Assembly: GCA_017471045.1 (NCBI GenBank)
Contig: JAFUWZ010000018.1
Location: 22,046-86,045 of the forward strand
Direction of reading: 5' to 3'
From: Bacteroidales bacterium
GTDB taxonomy: Bacteria; Bacteroidota; Bacteroidia; Bacteroidales; UBA932
DNA length: 64,000 nt
Shown one piece after another: positions 14,812-22,128 of the stretch (within the stretch, counting starts at the first letter, position 1; the number at the start of each line of letters is the position of its first letter). A program made the translations under genes and the position numbers. The notes beneath the pieces were generated by a model, which was not told the origin of the DNA, searched no databases, and saw only the letters and a list, made by a program, of their open reading frames with translations.

Positions 14812-17499
14812 TTATTGACTCTTAGCTAATGCAGATACTAATTTCTCTTTTTCTCTGGATCCGTCAGTTCTGAGTCGAAGCAAAGGTAATCCGATAGCGG
14901 CAAGGACTGAATCTTTAACCCTATCCCTTTTCCCTTGAGCAGAATCTACTTTGTGATACTGCGTTCCATCAACCTCTATGGCCAACTTTGCTTTATGCGA
15001 AACGGTGTCATAGATTAAGAAATCGAGGTGTGTCCAAGAGTGAGACGCATAAGTCCGCAGTTCATCCGTCAATTCAGATTTCGGTGTAATCAAGTACCGG
15101 AGCGGATAATGCATCAAGACACCGAGGTGTTCACAGCCCCTCTCTTTGAACACTTCCTGAATAGTCCAATAAGCCAGGTTTTCTGAATCAAACTCTGATA
15201 CTTTCTTATGGGTTTCATAAAAGCGAAGAAGCTCCTTGTTGTTCTCTTCATAGAGCAAGTCAAAAACAGACGAAATCTGACTTTGCTGTGCTCCACCTTG
15301 ATAATACTCGATGTAATCAATCAGGTTTTGAATATTTGAGTCCGGCTGCTCATCCGATGAAACAACAAGTGTAAACTGCTTTTTTGCCCGCGAAACCGCC
15401 ACATTAATCAGGTGAGGGTCATCAGTGAATTCGCTTACCTGATTATCAACGGTGGAGAGGATAATGGCATCATTCTCTCGGCCTTGAAACTTATGAACGG
15501 TGGCGACGACATAATTGTATCCACGTGCTTCCAATGAATCATTTATTGCTTCCACTTGATCATTATAGGGCGCAATGATTCCGATATCTTTGAATTCTAC
15601 TTCTATCGATGGAATGATTTCCTGAACAATGGCATCAATCTGCCGATTATTAACTGTGCCTCTTGCGTGATTCCCCCGAACTGTCCGAATAACACGAATC
15701 GGAACATAGGAGCACTCATCTTTCTTCATGGGGATTAGTTCCCCGCCATAGAACTGCCTGCTGCAGAATCCAATAATCTGAGGATGGCAGCGGTAATGCT
15801 CTCGGAGTAGCGTTTCTGGGATTTGTGGATAGAGGCTGCAGATGGAGGACAAGAAACTGTTCGTAGAATACCTGTATGATTCACTGATGCCGTACTTGGC
15901 GAAGATGGCACTCACTACCTCTTCTGTCTTGGAGTCAACCACATTTGGAAGTTGCTTGAGGTCGCCAACGATTACTGCGTTATCGGCACAGCTGAGGGCC
16001 AACGCTCCTGCCGCAATATCAACCTGCGATGCCTCGTCCATAATCAGGTAATCGAACTTGCATGCAGGGTTGATGTTAGATGTTGCCGAAAAAGTAGTAC
16101 TCAGTATTACTGGATACTCTTTTAGGAAATCCCTGCTCTTAAAATAGAGTTCATCTGGCTCAAACTTAGCTCTGACTTTATGACGCCCATATGCCTGATA
16201 CAAGTAGTCCTTCAAAACCAGCATGGACAATTCGCGCAAACGGGCATTCTTGGCATCTGCATCCTTTGTTCTTGCCTCAAGGAACTTCCGGTCTGATTCG
16301 AGCAATTCAATCTTTGATTCAACGAGAAGGTATTGAAGTGTATCAACGATATCATCTTCAACGGGGATTCGATGCCAACGTAGTCTTAAGCGAGTCAACC
16401 ATGATAGCCGATGTTTCTTTTCCATATCCCGCTGGCAGAGACGGAAATACTTGTGCAGAATCTTATATGAGTACTTCCTCTCCAAAGAGACCTTCTTAGG
16501 GAATAAATCAATCTGGCGTTTATACGCTTCAAGCTTTTCGAGGTCAATTGCAAGATGCTCTTGACACTCATAGAGCTCTTGCATTTCTCTGGATAACTGA
16601 ACAGCCGCTTTGCGAACTGCCCCTGCATTCTCAAGTTTCCAAGACTCAACGTCAGGATACTCTCCGGTCTGACTCTCAATAAAGGCGTTTTTATTCTTGA
16701 CACGCCCCAGTTGTGCACAAATGAAATCAAGCCCTGCAGATTGGAGCTTTTCCTTAACATTCTCTACAGCCGAATTGTTATTTGAGACGATTTCCGTCGT
16801 CTTGCCCGCAATCAACAGATTGGATAGTATATTGAGAATGGTCTGCGTTTTCCCGGTACCAGGAGGGCCTTGGATGACACTTAGTTTGTGTTCCAAAGCA
16901 TTGCGCACTGCTTTGTATTGACTTCGATTACATCCAAAGGGGAAAATAGGCGCACTTGGAGTACCAGCATCCTCAGGGTATGTATCGATATTGAGATAAG
17001 CTTCTAAAAGTGAGTTCTTTACAACGAACTCCATCTTTTTGTACTTGTCTGCGAGGCTTACGGTCTTCTCCTCTTTATCAGCAACCGGAATGACATTGTA
17101 CTTAGCTACCTCATTGAGATACTCCCAGACATTGATTGAGCGCTTATCATCGATATGCTCTTCTATATATAGATACGATGAGGGATAGTTTTTTGCATTT
17201 CCATTCTCGTATATGATTCTATAAGCACGATTTTCCCTTCCTTGGAATACACGGACACCAAGAATATGATGGAAGACCTCTCCGTCTGATTTCCGCCTTA
17301 TCCTAAACGGCGGCTCCAATTGACGGCTAAACATGGCAACATCAACATTCTCAGGATTATAATGTAAAACCTTCTGACCTTGACGAAATCGTACGTAGAA
17401 TTGCCCCTTTTTATCATCAAATCCAAACTGATCAAGATCGTCCGATAGCTTGAATACCCCGGATCGTTTCAAGAAAACTATTTGCTGGGTTGATGGCAT
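14812..17499 (-). CDS. SF1 (UPF1/DNA2-like) helicase with C-terminal nuclease domain
   Basis: 895 residues. An N-terminal beta-rich region (1-130) precedes an SF1B helicase core: Walker A QGPPGTGKTQT (about 209-219), a long helical insert, Walker B DYLIMDEASQ, motif III GDLKQLPNV, LREHYRCHP (motif IV), HKFQGRENDAI (V) and VAVSRAKKQFTL (VI). The last about 110 residues carry LAIEVDGTQYH and LPLLRLRTDGS, the pattern of a Vsr/DUF2726-like PD-(D/E)XK endonuclease. Start at 17499 follows the stop of the wHTH reading frame by one base, giving strong translational coupling. Helicase-nuclease fusions of this kind are typical of anti-phage systems; the role here is inferred. Confidence 0.88.
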   Translation of the reverse strand: MPSTQQIVFLKRSGVFKLSDDLDQFGFDDKKGQFYVRFRQGQKVLHYNPENVDVAMFSRQLEPPFRIRRKSDGEVFHHILGVRVFQGRENRAYRIIYENGNAKNYPSSYLYIEEHIDDKRSINVWEYLNEVAKYNVIPVADKEEKTVSLADKYKKMEFVVKNSLLEAYLNIDTYPEDAGTPSAPIFPFGCNRSQYKAVRNALEHKLSVIQGPPGTGKTQTILNILSNLLIAGKTTEIVSNNNSAVENVKEKLQSAGLDFICAQLGRVKNKNAFIESQTGEYPDVESWKLENAGAVRKAAVQLSREMQELYECQEHLAIDLEKLEAYKRQIDLFPKKVSLERKYSYKILHKYFRLCQRDMEKKHRLSWLTRLRLRWHRIPVEDDIVDTLQYLLVESKIELLESDRKFLEARTKDADAKNARLRELSMLVLKDYLYQAYGRHKVRAKFEPDELYFKSRDFLKEYPVILSTTFSATSNINPACKFDYLIMDEASQVDIAAGALALSCADNAVIVGDLKQLPNVVDSKTEEVVSAIFAKYGISESYRYSTNSFLSSICSLYPQIPETLLREHYRCHPQIIGFCSRQFYGGELIPMKKDECSYVPIRVIRTVRGNHARGTVNNRQIDAIVQEIIPSIEVEFKDIGIIAPYNDQVEAINDSLEARGYNYVVATVHKFQGRENDAIILSTVDNQVSEFTDDPHLINVAVSRAKKQFTLVVSSDEQPDSNIQNLIDYIEYYQGGAQQSQISSVFDLLYEENNKELLRFYETHKKVSEFDSENLAYWTIQEVFKERGCEHLGVLMHYPLRYLITPKSELTDELRTYASHSWTHLDFLIYDTVSHKAKLAIEVDGTQYHKVDSAQGKRDRVKDSVLAAIGLPLLRLRTDGSREKEKLVSALAKSQ

Positions 17500-17500
17500 A

Positions 17501-17809
17501 TTATTTTTTGAAGAGGACTTTCCAGGAGCTGCCGTAGTCGGGGCCGATGTGTACGATAATCTGTCTCTCTTGCAGGGATGCAAGATGATATTTTATGGTG
17601 TCTTCAGATTTGTCAATTAATTCTGCCAGGCCCTTGCGGGTGATTTTTGGGTCGGCAACAATGGCATCGATGATGGCCTGAGCCGTTTTGCCAATCTTCT
17701 TCCGGCTTGTTTTCGCATCTTTCTCCGGGTGACTTCTCTGGGTGAATTTTCTGGGTGAATTCTCCGTTCTCTGGGTGAATTTTCTGGGTGAGTTTTGCGA
17801 AGTCGGCAT
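17501..17809 (-). CDS. Out-of-frame winged-helix C-terminus of the AlbA_2 regulator
   Basis: This reading frame encodes the segment GKTAQAIIDAIVADPKITRKGLAELIDKSEDTIKYHLASL, a winged-helix domain that in related ATP-binding regulators is the C-terminal domain of the same polypeptide as the upstream AlbA_2 part. It is one base out of frame with the gene at 17613-18968, and the switch point lies in a 13-bp tandem repeat (17721-17792). Removing one repeat unit would fuse the two frames. Its stop is one base from the helicase start. As drawn it starts at an ATG within the repeat-proximal region; independent expression is doubtful. Confidence 0.7.
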   Translation of the reverse strand: MPTSQNSPRKFTQRTENSPRKFTQRSHPEKDAKTSRKKIGKTAQAIIDAIVADPKITRKGLAELIDKSEDTIKYHLASLQERQIIVHIGPDYGSSWKVLFKK

Positions 17810-18968
17810 CCGTCATCCCATAATTGGCGTTGGGAATGGTGGTGTAGAAGAATTCACGGCTGGATTCGAAGACCGGCCTGCGCTCCGGCTTGTAGGTAGG
17901 AAGAAGGGCCGTGGCATCCAGAATCTTACGCAGTCCGCTGCCGCGCTTTTCCATGTAGCGCCGCTGGGAGAATACTTCAGCGATGATGGGGTTGCGACGC
18001 TTGGAGGTAATTTTTTCCGGTTCCAGACGAATGGGGTCAAAGCCGTCCGTTATGCCGCCGGGAGAGGTGGTTTCTATGCGGTCATCATAAATATTGATGG
18101 CAACTTCAGAACCAAGTTCGCTGTAGTCACGGTGGATGAGGTGGTTCACGCACATCTCTTCTATGGCTCTCTTGGCGTATTCCGGAAGGTTGAGCCGATA
18201 GTCCAGGAGTTTGTACCAGCGCACCGCCGTGTTGGCCTTGATGAAGTTTTTTGCCATGTCCAGCAACAGGAGCAGGTTGCCCTGATACTCGGAGTCGTTG
18301 ACAGCATCGGTTTTGATGGTTCCGTTCCACTTGGTGCAGAATACACGGGACTGGGCGATGGGACAGCGGTCTGCAAACAAGAGGCCTGCGTGCGTGAGGT
18401 GCCCGTCGTCGGTGACAAGGCCGAAGGAGTTCAGTAGACCTTCTTCCCATACGGAGCCGGAACGCTGGTTGTATTCGCGCTCAAGGGTGCTGAAAGTGTG
18501 TTTCTCCCGAAGTTCATTGGAGACCAAAGAGTCCCAGCTGCGATTGCTGCCCCGAAGGACAAGTTCGAACAACTCGTGGGGCGTTGCCGGAATGCTTTCA
18601 TTTCCGCGTCGCACATTGGCGATGCGCTTGCCATCCAAATTCAGATAGTAGGGCGTCTGCATCCCGGCAGGAACCTGGAGAACGATGATAATCAGTCCTT
18701 CCGGGGTTGTTATGGGATTCAAAGAATAGACAGGCACCGGGTCAAGATGCGCATTAATCTTCTCACTGATGAATTCAAGGTCCTTCTGGGGATTGGTTAC
18801 GCCGATGACTTTTGCATCATCGTCAACGCCGAAGAAAAGCGTGCCGCCTGCCGTATCGGCAAAAGCGCTCACACTCTTGAGCCAACTGCGAATCTTCCTC
18901 CGCTCAAGTACCCCCTTGAAATCATAGGCCGTACATTCGGCAATGAGTATGTTGTTTTCTATTCTCAT
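17613..18968 (-). CDS. AlbA_2/ATP-binding transcriptional regulator, frame-broken before wHTH
   Basis: The N-terminal AlbA_2 (Schlafen-like) domain (about residues 5-125) has SVSAFADTAGGTLFFGV. It is followed by a GHKL-type HATPase_c_4 region with NHLIHRDYSELGSEVAINIYDDRIE and EKRGSGLRKI. The frame then enters a repetitive linker (TQKIHPE repeated) and runs out in a nonsense tail rich in Cys/His, stopping at 17613. In homologues a winged-helix domain follows the linker; here it continues in the +1 frame (17501-17809). It is the first gene of an operon with the helicase-nuclease at 14812-17499. Confidence 0.85.
   Translation of the reverse strand: MRIENNILIAECTAYDFKGVLERRKIRSWLKSVSAFADTAGGTLFFGVDDDAKVIGVTNPQKDLEFISEKINAHLDPVPVYSLNPITTPEGLIIIVLQVPAGMQTPYYLNLDGKRIANVRRGNESIPATPHELFELVLRGSNRSWDSLVSNELREKHTFSTLEREYNQRSGSVWEEGLLNSFGLVTDDGHLTHAGLLFADRCPIAQSRVFCTKWNGTIKTDAVNDSEYQGNLLLLLDMAKNFIKANTAVRWYKLLDYRLNLPEYAKRAIEEMCVNHLIHRDYSELGSEVAINIYDDRIETTSPGGITDGFDPIRLEPEKITSKRRNPIIAEVFSQRRYMEKRGSGLRKILDATALLPTYKPERRPVFESSREFFYTTIPNANYGMTDADFAKLTQKIHPENGEFTQKIHPEKSPGERCENKPEEDWQNGSGHHRCHCCRPKNHPQGPGRIN
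17721..17792 (-). repeat. 13-bp tandem repeat at the frame break (putative slippage switch)
   Basis: Units on the plus strand end in GGGTGA: 17721-17733, 17734-17746, 17747-17759, a 20-base unit 17760-17779 and 17780-17792. Two units are identical (ATTTTCTGGGTGA); the others differ at a few bases. Because 13 is not a multiple of three, gain or loss of a unit moves the reading frame. Deleting one unit, or adding two, restores a continuous AlbA_2-to-wHTH frame. Confidence 0.85.
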
Positions 18969-19298: not shown

Positions 19299-20723
19299 TC
19301 ATCTTCCCGTCATATACCCCAGCATATCAGATGCAATCACTGGGGCCAGTACGCGCATGACATTATCCTCCTCTTTGTGGTGGCTCCCTGCAAGGTCAAT
19401 GCTGCCAAACCAGAACAAGGAACGGTCTATAATAGCCGCGCGGATAGGTTGCCGCTCAGTTTTAACAAGTTTAATCCCAACTTTGATGAAATCTTCATCT
19501 CGAGAAGATGGCTTCCGGATAGTAATACAGCATTCGACACCACGTATGCCCAAAGCCTGCAGAGCCTTGGCTAAAGTACCTCTCATATACTGAACCGACT
19601 CGCAAGAAAGGACAACCGAGGACTGCGCCGCCTCAATGTCGCCTACTAGAACCGGAAGGAAGGTATCCGGGCCAAGAACGATATCCTGTGGATTCTGTTC
19701 CAAAGCGTCCGTCATCTGCCGGGCATAGCCAATAGGCGCGTAGCATTTCAGTCGCTTGCCGTACATATTGGCAATAACAGGGACGTGGATATCGATATAA
19801 TCGTAAACACGCACCTCGGTTTTGCCTTCATAATCCCGATGGAGACGCCCCGTATATTGCTGGACAATATTCGGATAGGCAACCGGTAGGGCTATGAAGA
19901 GCGTATCCAGCCTGGGATAAGTGAAACCTTCGCCCACATACTTCTCGGTTGCAATGATTATAAGTGGCTCCGTCTCCGGGATACTTTTGAGCCGATCCAT
20001 CGCCTTCCGCTTCTCCTTAGCCGATGCAGTACCAATCAACTGAACCACATTCCGGCAATAGGGAGCCAGCATATCGGCAAGTAGGGAGATGTGGTCTTTC
20101 CGCTTTGTCAGGATAATTGGTGACCGGCCCTCGTTCAATTCAGCCACAACATCTTGCACAATCAAGTCATTCCTGGCACGGTCGTTGGCTAAATCGCCAA
20201 GGTATTGCAAGGAGTTCCCGTTCTCCTCTATCGCCCGAAAAGGAGTAAAACGCGGAATCAAAACTCGGCTAAAAGACTGTCGGGACATCTGCGCCTTCGC
20301 ATCCGACTTATATCGAATCGGACCGCACTGCATGAACACAATGGGTGTCATCCCGTCTTGACGGGTGGGAGTTGCCGAAAGTCCATACACATATCGGGCA
20401 TTAACATACTTCAGCACACGCTCATAGCCAATGGCCCCGGAATGATGGCATTCATCGGCTATCACCATCCCGTAGTTTCGGACAAATGGCTTGACGCCTT
20501 CCTCCGACAACGCGGAATTGAACACGGCAATATCTATGATGTCGTGCAGCGTATTCCGGCTCCCGTCCAGTAGGCCGACAGGAGAGAACGCCCTTTTTCT
20601 TCCCCGTCCTTTCTTCTTTTCTGATTCGGGTTTTGATTCATTGATAATCAAGAACTTTTCAATCTCTTCCTTCCATTGTTCCAGCAGGGCCTTGGAATGA
20701 ACCAATAGTCTTTCGTCTTGCAA
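19299..20723 (-). CDS. TOTE system helicase and PLD-like C-terminal half (frameshifted from 5' half)
   Basis: Continues the primase-helicase gene in a different frame. It begins within SF2 motif Ia (LLVHSKALLEQW), then Walker B VIADECHHSG, motif III SATPTRQ, motif V YVGEGFTYPRLD and motif VI QYTGRLHRDYEG. The last about 150 residues resemble a phospholipase D-fold domain (AAIIDRSLFWFGSIDL), but the HKD catalytic residues are not evident. The nominal start is a TTG and there is no independent initiation signal, so this is best read as the 3' part of one broken gene of about 940 codons. Confidence 0.8.
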   Translation of the reverse strand: MQDERLLVHSKALLEQWKEEIEKFLIINESKPESEKKKGRGRKRAFSPVGLLDGSRNTLHDIIDIAVFNSALSEEGVKPFVRNYGMVIADECHHSGAIGYERVLKYVNARYVYGLSATPTRQDGMTPIVFMQCGPIRYKSDAKAQMSRQSFSRVLIPRFTPFRAIEENGNSLQYLGDLANDRARNDLIVQDVVAELNEGRSPIILTKRKDHISLLADMLAPYCRNVVQLIGTASAKEKRKAMDRLKSIPETEPLIIIATEKYVGEGFTYPRLDTLFIALPVAYPNIVQQYTGRLHRDYEGKTEVRVYDYIDIHVPVIANMYGKRLKCYAPIGYARQMTDALEQNPQDIVLGPDTFLPVLVGDIEAAQSSVVLSCESVQYMRGTLAKALQALGIRGVECCITIRKPSSRDEDFIKVGIKLVKTERQPIRAAIIDRSLFWFGSIDLAGSHHKEEDNVMRVLAPVIASDMLGYMTGR

Positions 20724-22128
20724 TCATTCCAATTACAGCAACCGTTTTTCCGAAAGCGGTGGTCGCTGCGAGCACTCCGTTATTGTATGAGAGCAGTCTT
20801 TGGACGGCCTCCTCCTGCTCCGGGCGAAGTTCTCCGGAAAAAGAAACATCTATTGGCCTTCCCGCGTTGGTCTGGTCATCCTCTTCCCACGCCGAGAAAT
20901 TGCTTTGAAGCAGTTCTATCACGGCGTCCTCGCATCCTCTTGGCAGTTTAAGGTAATCTTCCGTCATCTCATAACAGGTCACGAGGGATGGCGTGTGATA
21001 TAGCGGCTTCCTGGCGTTAAGTAGCTCATAGTATTTGGGATTCTGGAAAGAGGCCAGCCCTTTAAGATGCCTGAGAACCTTTCCAGAAACGCTCTTTATC
21101 AGCACATAAACCCCATTCGCCCGAACAAGTTTGACGGGGCCGAAGAAATCTTCAAATGAAATGCGGTCCGGCTTCGGCGTATCCCATGGTTTGGTCTCCG
21201 ATGACGAGGACAACTCTATCTGATACGCGTGATTTGCCAGAATGGCTTTAAACTCCGCAACAGTGAGTTTCCTTGCCGATGATAAAAGAGACCATTGGTC
21301 CTGATAAGCCTCAAAGTCCTCGTCCACAAAAACACTGTTGCCACTTTTTCGGGCCAAGCCCTGCAATGGGAGCGCAATCAGGTTTCCGAAGCCGCCTTTC
21401 GGCAAGAAATCCTGATTCGGCAGGAATCGGTCGTAGGATTTCATATCCAGACGGACATTGCGTTCCATGGCGGCACCGATGATAGCGAAGCCTAATCTTC
21501 GGGCGTCCGCAGCTAATACCGGATCATCAAAGAAGATCCATACATGTGCCCCTTTTCCAGAACGCGAACGCTCGATGTATGCAGGAACATCCCATTCCTT
21601 GCAGACACGAACATACGAAAGGACATCGTCCTGGTAGCCATACTCGCAGTTCTTGTCATCGAAATCGGCGCAGAGGAAGTAAACCATGTTGTCCTCAAGG
21701 ATAGGATAAATGCCGATGACATCTGTCTCCTTTGCCTCTTTATCCAGATGTCTGCGAATAATCACCTCGTCGAGCGGGATAAACTCCCTGAAAGGGCAAC
21801 CCTCACACTTTCGCTTGTGCTCTACACACCCGTCCGACCACCTGTTCTTGCATACCGGTTGATAACCAGCCTTACCCACTTTGGAAACGAAACGCTGCGC
21901 AAACACATCTTCCCGACCTCGGAACAAACCACGGAAGATGTCTAAACGGCGTTGGATTTCCGCTTCTCTGTTCCGTTCTGCCTGTATTAGTCTGCTGTTA
22001 TATTGGGGCGGCTCCGGCTCATACAACAACGAAGAACCATAACCTTTCAAGCGGGCATTCTCCTGCTCCAACTCGTGGATTCGCGCTCGCAATCGAAGGT
22101 TTTCAGCCAGAAGCTCTTCGTAAGTCAT
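20659..22128 (-). CDS. TOTE conflict-system archaeo-eukaryotic primase with helicase start (5' half)
   Basis: 489 residues. An N-terminal coiled coil (1-28) is followed by a Cys cluster (C93, C101, C108, C111) likely to bind zinc. The archaeo-eukaryotic primase domain has catalytic CADFDDK (D155, D157), SGKGAHVWIFF (His 195) and the family-typical GGFGNLIALPLQG. The SF2 helicase Walker A TTAFGKT follows near residue 468. This matches the AEP-helicase component of TOTE conflict systems. The frame breaks just after the P-loop helix (near 20700), and the last about 13 residues are out of register. The N-terminus is intact; start 22128 is followed by a typical MTYEELLAEN. Confidence 0.85.
   Translation of the reverse strand: MTYEELLAENLRLRARIHELEQENARLKGYGSSLLYEPEPPQYNSRLIQAERNREAEIQRRLDIFRGLFRGREDVFAQRFVSKVGKAGYQPVCKNRWSDGCVEHKRKCEGCPFREFIPLDEVIIRRHLDKEAKETDVIGIYPILEDNMVYFLCADFDDKNCEYGYQDDVLSYVRVCKEWDVPAYIERSRSGKGAHVWIFFDDPVLAADARRLGFAIIGAAMERNVRLDMKSYDRFLPNQDFLPKGGFGNLIALPLQGLARKSGNSVFVDEDFEAYQDQWSLLSSARKLTVAEFKAILANHAYQIELSSSSETKPWDTPKPDRISFEDFFGPVKLVRANGVYVLIKSVSGKVLRHLKGLASFQNPKYYELLNARKPLYHTPSLVTCYEMTEDYLKLPRGCEDAVIELLQSNFSAWEEDDQTNAGRPIDVSFSGELRPEQEEAVQRLLSYNNGVLAATTAFGKTVAVIGMIARRKTIGSFQGPAGTMEGRD

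Follow-up and report, generated by a model that had tools for sequence, protein, structure and literature searches.

Known systems

Bacterial proteins in which a Schlafen RNase is joined to a minimal histidine kinase and a winged-helix (wHTH) domain have been linked to BREX and related systems, and the Schlafen–kinase–wHTH form near BREX-type loci occurs in at least 1017 taxa (PMC12839542). The family studied here shares the domain order of those proteins (SLFN_AlbA_2, HATPase_c_4 and wHTH), and the likeness to the BREX setting is found in our dataset as well, where the homologue L253 lies between brxC and pglX and carries a 12-bp array in its linker. The main text of that report contains 0 occurrences of 'direct repeat' or 'tandem repeat', so the arrays described below seem not to be covered in it. 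In the open-access literature searched, we found no report of such arrays in the Schlafen–HATPase–wHTH family.

Arrays that lie within or next to the gene of the protein that reads them are known from replication initiators. In RepA_N initiators, such as Rep of pSK41, the sites for the protein are located inside its own gene, in linker-coding DNA, as is proposed for the locus described here; these initiators differ in having an N-terminal DNA-binding domain, a role in plasmid replication and unrelated domains (PMC5703833). The iterons of ori-lambda are likewise intragenic, within the gene of the phage lambda initiator O, but each is a 19-bp inverted repeat to which a dimer binds, an A+T-rich opening region lies next to them, and they serve replication (PMC5043065). 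In SaPI Rep and SCCmec Cch2, gene-adjacent repeats are bound by the C-terminal domain and resemble the arrays that we found beyond stop codons, although both proteins are helicases with a role in replication (PMC7581432). A likeness to the self-repression proposed below is offered by RptR, which represses its own defence locus through short direct repeats; it differs in being a small single-domain protein, with promoter repeats that have a palindromic core (PMC12255303). Intragenic cognate arrays are already known from lambda O and RepA_N, and the arrays reported here may work alike, which does not imply membership of those families.

Organization of the locus

The window analysed is a stretch of 64,000 nucleotides of contig JAFUWZ010000018.1, from a Bacteroidales draft genome (GCA_017471045.1) of 73 contigs, 96% complete and with 2.75% contamination. 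Both domains of its main ORF (Table 1) score far above the Pfam cut-offs, with 65.5 bits for SLFN_AlbA_2 (cut-off 25.3) and 76.7 bits for HATPase_c_4 (cut-off 26). The gene thus has both domains in one protein, as expected of the Schlafen–HATPase_c_4–wHTH family, but not the C-terminal wHTH in the same frame, which is present in the related L160, L161 and L162. The first-pass annotation had described a frame that runs from these domains through five repeat copies, and an intact wHTH lying one base out of frame behind the repeat; our analysis agrees on both points. The recognition-helix stretch of this wHTH, taken from the helix columns, is KSEDTIKYHL, and the ATG of the downstream gene starts one base past the wHTH stop codon.

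Table 1. Features of the Schlafen–HATPase–wHTH locus, with positions in the window
Feature	Positions	Strand	Pfam	E value
Main ORF, 451 aa (SLFN_AlbA_2 and HATPase_c_4, then array, then out-of-frame tail)	17613..18968	-		
SLFN_AlbA_2 domain, residues 13-128 of main ORF	18585..18932	-	PF04326	8e-18
HATPase_c_4 domain, residues 286-377 of main ORF	17838..18113	-	PF13749	1.4e-21
Array, five copies of (T)TCACCC(A/G)GA, 72 bases, spacings 13, 20, 13, 13; candidate sites for the gene's own wHTH	17721..17792	-		
Array unit 1, 13 bp	17780..17792	-		
Array unit 2, 20 bp	17760..17779	-		
Array unit 3, 13 bp	17747..17759	-		
Array unit 4, 13 bp; followed by the 20-bp gap when aligned with L160	17734..17746	-		
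Array unit 5, CCCGG variant	17721..17733	-		
Second ORF, 102 aa, with winged helix, one base out of frame relative to main ORF	17501..17809	-		
wHTH (HTH_24), residues 42-85 of the 102-aa ORF	17555..17686	-	PF13412	3.9e-06
Downstream gene, SF1 helicase (AAA_11/AAA_12) with DUF2726	14812..17499	-		

The array lies in the DNA that codes for the linker between HATPase_c_4 and the wHTH. Its units start at 17792, 17779, 17759, 17746 and 17733, and in the register of the main ORF the copies occupy all three frames. As neither 13 nor 20 is divisible by 3, the number of units alters the reading frame. Tandem Repeats Finder reported the segment 17721-17764 (period 13, score 67) as one of 4 arrays in the window. 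The array exceeds what is expected by chance, with a tandem score of 19 where none of 60 codon shuffles scored above 9, and within the draft genome the exact motif pair is confined to it. In the upstream region of the gene, no copy of the motif was found within one mismatch. The earlier remark that three open frames through the repeat are unusual does not hold, given that 364 of the 1396 72-nt windows of the gene are free of stops in the three sense frames.

Upstream of the main ORF, a TOTE conflict-system gene (AEP-TOTE primase and helicase, 19299-22128) is interrupted by a frameshift near 20700. The ATPase encoded at 22221-23675 matches the PADLOC candidate defence model PDC-S27 almost end to end (E = 1.7e-179), and this part of the window therefore looks like a defence island.

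Arrays across the family

The HATPase_c_4 profile (PF13749) was present in 85 of the 148 genomes sampled from the window's order. Tandem scores were surveyed in the 220 of 228 genes with enough sequence, and a score of at least 12 was reached in 120 of 220 stretches after the HATPase domain (the target), compared with 2 of 219 for gene bodies and 20 of 194 for the stretches that lie beyond the gene. Target periods were 11 (22 genes), 12 (74), 13 (3) and 20-24 (21), that is, one or two helical turns. Periods of 9, 15 and 18 were absent from the target arrays, though they would suit a protein linker as well as 12. A second set was drawn from other orders and classes of the phylum (30 loci returned by the search and 40 picked down the list), with a cut-off of 12 for the tandem score and of 10 for the motif comparison; it yielded 68 genes, 66 after two short ones were dropped. 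There, the score was reached in 36 of 66 targets, 0 of 66 gene bodies and 1 of 57 stretches beyond, and the only periods were 11, 12, 20-22 and 24. No array at the score threshold was found in 100 of the 220 genes and in 30 of the 66.

Confident arrays were called in 173 of 223 genes by a rule that was set after inspection of the data and under which three genes of the gene-body control reached four copies. These 173 arrays comprise 160 within coding sequence, 11 beyond the stop codon and 2 mixed. Copies occur in more than one frame in 85 of the 160 coding arrays, and in all three frames in 18, while the other arrangement, spacings that are exclusively multiples of 3, is found in 75, where the gain or loss of whole units cannot shift the frame. 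Arrays of 11 bp cycle through the frames, and the encoded peptide thus differs with each unit; the same change per unit is seen in 13-bp arrays. In the clade with the helix SQRT[IV]ERD, spacing is exactly 12, 11 in 50 of the 57 members. Synonymous codons under the motif copies are nearly fixed in the 56 sequences compared, with a normalised excess of 0.82 (21 columns) against 0.39 in the 318 other columns (p = 1e-9) and, for 47 columns of the linker and wHTH, 0.41 (p = 9e-7), a comparison that is partly circular because the columns were picked by the presence of the motif. Gene pairs that have a common 8-base core and HATPase identity of at most 75% carried it in the same single frame in 52 cases and otherwise in 40.

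The position of the array also varies. In two other wHTH classes, many members have linkers free of repeats, their 11-bp arrays being located at the stop codon or past it. A related motif in L062 and L132 is, by eye, reversed in orientation relative to L101 and L120. Weak array scores (9-11) were obtained for L249, L250, L258 and L259, and an array was found in L158. Among the 15 loci scanned together, the E. coli IncC homologue (L157) has neither a wHTH tail nor an array, and L257 has no array.

That arrays are a general property of wHTH proteins was rejected on the basis of a control with Fic proteins, not all of which have a C-terminal wHTH. From 30 Fic loci, three were dropped (two with short tails and one without the motif), and 3 of the 27 tested reached a score of at least 12: one genuine 12-bp array, one masked stretch and one A+T run. 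The Fic protein L332 combines a 12-bp array in its linker with a wHTH that, by eye, resembles that of the Schlafen–HATPase family, as if the array–wHTH cassette had been swapped into a Fic protein.

Covariation of repeat motif and recognition helix

Among 86 representatives of 141 genes, motif similarity regressed on recognition-helix identity gave a beta of 0.25 (0 of 2000 permutations), compared with 0.16 (0 of 2000) for the remaining wHTH and 0.04 (121 of 2000) for the HATPase domain. In the 26 genes compared from the second set, the array of the nearest-helix training gene agreed at a mean of 7.09 of 9 motif bases, against 6.24 (sd 0.17) after permutation of the arrays (0 of 5000); shared ancestry is not entirely accounted for in these permutation tests. 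The signal in the second set comes mainly from the 14 genes whose nearest helix is at least 60% identical, with a mean of 7.54, the other 12 having a mean of 6.58.

Three helix–motif pairs recur in both sets: SRNTA with TTGCACAA, TRAIEKQ with AAGTTCGG and QRTIER with ATGTCGGAG. In the window's order, five genes with a helix of the form [ST][DE]RTA.R[DE]L (L067, L093, L098, L111 and L120) have TGGCGGATA or TGTCGGATA past the stop codon. A plasmid-borne homologue from Chlorohelix (Chloroflexota; L249), with the helix SDRTAYRDL, has two copies of TGGCGGATA at 25-45 bp ahead of its start codon, a pair that is weak as a repeat (score 9) and occurs once in the 375-kb record. One member, L311 (TDRTARYDL, with TTTCCGATAAA), deviates from the pattern of its helix group. 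When L029 and L042 were compared in blocks of 60 columns, identity was 78-100% before the array, 45-75% over the array and wHTH, and 93-95% just after, a divergence confined to the two elements that fits a single recombining cassette.

A candidate target array for the encoded wHTH

Given that the copies lie in several frames, that some arrays are located past the stop codon and that motif and recognition helix covary, the repeat is best interpreted as a cis-linked array of sites for the C-terminal wHTH encoded by the same gene, and in the window as such an array one unit short; we consider this reading likely. The wHTH would bind its array head-to-tail, at several sites, and the protein would probably oligomerise along the array at one or two helical turns per step. 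The bound protein would then probably repress or road-block its own transcription, which would hold a Schlafen-type effector or regulator at a low level.

The motif was found in the 250 bp upstream of 34 of 161 genes, with 30.4 expected from a mononucleotide shuffle, and this absence of enrichment leads us to favour repression from inside the transcription unit, whether by road-block or by silencing, rather than at a conventional promoter operator, although the balance of chances is about even. Autorepression through a promoter operator is, on the same count, unsupported for the sample, with single exceptions in L107, L159, L249 and L258. A regulated downstream gene was also considered and set aside; the ORFs that follow the post-stop arrays at 11 loci share, by eye, no common gene.

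If the cognate wHTH binds these arrays, a widespread, defence-linked family would have its own DNA target written beside the gene, many helix–target pairs could be read from sequence alone, and regulation would be directly testable. Many members have linkers with 4-residue repeats, which would then be a by-product of DNA sites and not of protein function, and the window would illustrate how such a site, on losing a unit, can break its own gene. More speculatively, each of these defence-associated genes could be a self-addressed unit, with an array in or beside its own coding DNA that its wHTH reads, and with the array and wHTH moving and recombining together as a cassette. The array would tether the effector to its own gene, and interference with the DNA or the ATPase by an invader would release it. 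We regard this extension as tentative and rather improbable in its full form.

The frame break and its possible origins

The closest relative found, L160 (92% protein and 87% DNA identity), has its wHTH in frame. Its array consists of six copies with spacings of 13, 20, 13, 13 and 20, exactly one 20-bp unit more than in the window. L161, L162, L003, L033 and L165, all in frame, also have 13/20(21) arrays. Between the window and L160, the wHTH shows a dN of 0.042 and a dS of 0.889 (dN/dS about 0.05), indicating strong purifying selection, and the gene body a dN of 0.028 and a dS of 0.564. Given that the out-of-frame wHTH has not decayed, the break is either recent or an assembly or strain variant.

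Across the family, a wHTH was detected in 173 of 228 distinct genes; it was in frame in 167 of the 173, and 6 were flagged. By eye, the flagged L040 has a deletion ahead of the array, L224 lacks the array entirely, L151 shifts frame past the array and L091 is disrupted past it, while the flagged L072 has a doubtful wHTH match (E = 0.012). Only two of the 173 wHTH-positive genes, those of the window and L224, were broken by loss of array sequence, and in the second set 34 of 35 detected wHTHs were in frame and 1 was out. A substantial share of homologues switched off through the repeat was thus not found in either set. The best explanation of the break is that an array one unit shorter throws the wHTH out of frame, as a recent loss or as a minority or assembly variant rather than as the off state of an evolved switch.

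The frame break may itself be spurious, arising from a collapsed repeat or a strain mixture in a 73-contig draft, in which case the array and its proposed role would stand. The draft state and contamination of the genome are compatible with such an error, and so is the neighbouring TOTE gene, which is frameshifted too when the seven matches listed for its relatives all lie in open frames of 708-1043 aa. Against it, the array, at only 72 bp, fits within one read, and the 20-bp difference is a whole unit, as a real repeat mutation would leave. An artefact seems unlikely to us, with some chance remaining.

The first-pass annotation had proposed a contingency locus, where reversible changes in unit number would join the C-terminal DNA-binding domain to the protein or part it from it, with the genome caught in the off state. 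Part of this proposal is borne out: the comparison of unit number in related loci shows that copy number differs among close relatives, a single 20-bp unit separates the window from L160, which is in frame, and the wHTH remains conserved although out of frame. As the function of the array, switching fares poorly. Nearly half of the coding arrays (the 75 with spacings in multiples of 3) are unable to shift frame by whole units, spacing in the SQRT[IV]ERD clade is fixed in most members, some arrays lie outside the reading frame and the wHTHs of both sets are overwhelmingly in frame. The motif also tracks the recognition helix of the wHTH, which slippage alone would not predict and which counts against switching as what the array is for. 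We consider a contingency function improbable.

Replication and linker alternatives

The array could serve replication or recombination instead of own-gene control. In particular, it might belong to an iteron-type replication module, with an initiator-like protein and the array as origin, as in lambda O and RepA_N or in SaPI and SCCmec elements. The placement of the arrays, inside or beside the gene, matches these precedents, the post-stop clusters are paired (see below), and two plasmid copies from Chlorohelix adjoin parA/parB-type genes. However, an A+T-rich element beside the arrays is not clearly apparent, mean GC content over 160 arrays being 0.47 in the array, 0.41 upstream, 0.38 downstream and 0.42 in the gene. 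The domains, a GHKL ATPase and Schlafen, are not those of initiators, and the copy in the window sits in a genome bin, next to defence-type genes, and no replicon gene was seen in its vicinity. A replication module is a doubtful reading, of low probability.

It is very improbable that the repeats are merely a low-complexity protein linker produced by slippage, with DNA that has no role and covariation with the wHTH that reflects linked inheritance only; the commonest period of 12 does keep the frame and yields 4-residue repeats, but each unit of the 11- and 13-bp arrays alters the peptide, the equally suitable periods of 9, 15 and 18 are missing, some arrays lie beyond the stop codon, the helix predicts the motif in other classes of the phylum, and Fic proteins, not all with a wHTH, gave a single genuine array.

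Further repeat arrangements

Several loci show repeats in other configurations. In L085, L107, L109 and L135, members that end in (Y)[IL]P.WA or similar, the post-stop arrays form two clusters separated by 67-99 bp, and by eye L105 also has paired post-stop clusters. L107 has, in addition, a 135-bp direct repeat, with two clusters of an 11-bp motif, that flanks the gene (329-463 before and 1920-2054 after) and may be a decayed tandem duplication that includes the gene's promoter. The Butyrivibrio homologue L159 has several TTGAAGT-like copies right upstream of the start codon (L159:1345-1423, score 20). In the two Chlorohelix plasmids, two-copy repeats are found just upstream of the start (L249:1363-1383 and L258:1334-1353, score 9 each), and both homologues adjoin the parA/parB-type genes mentioned above. 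A different second direct repeat, TGTCACAAGTC, is present past the stop codon in L029, L041 and L042.
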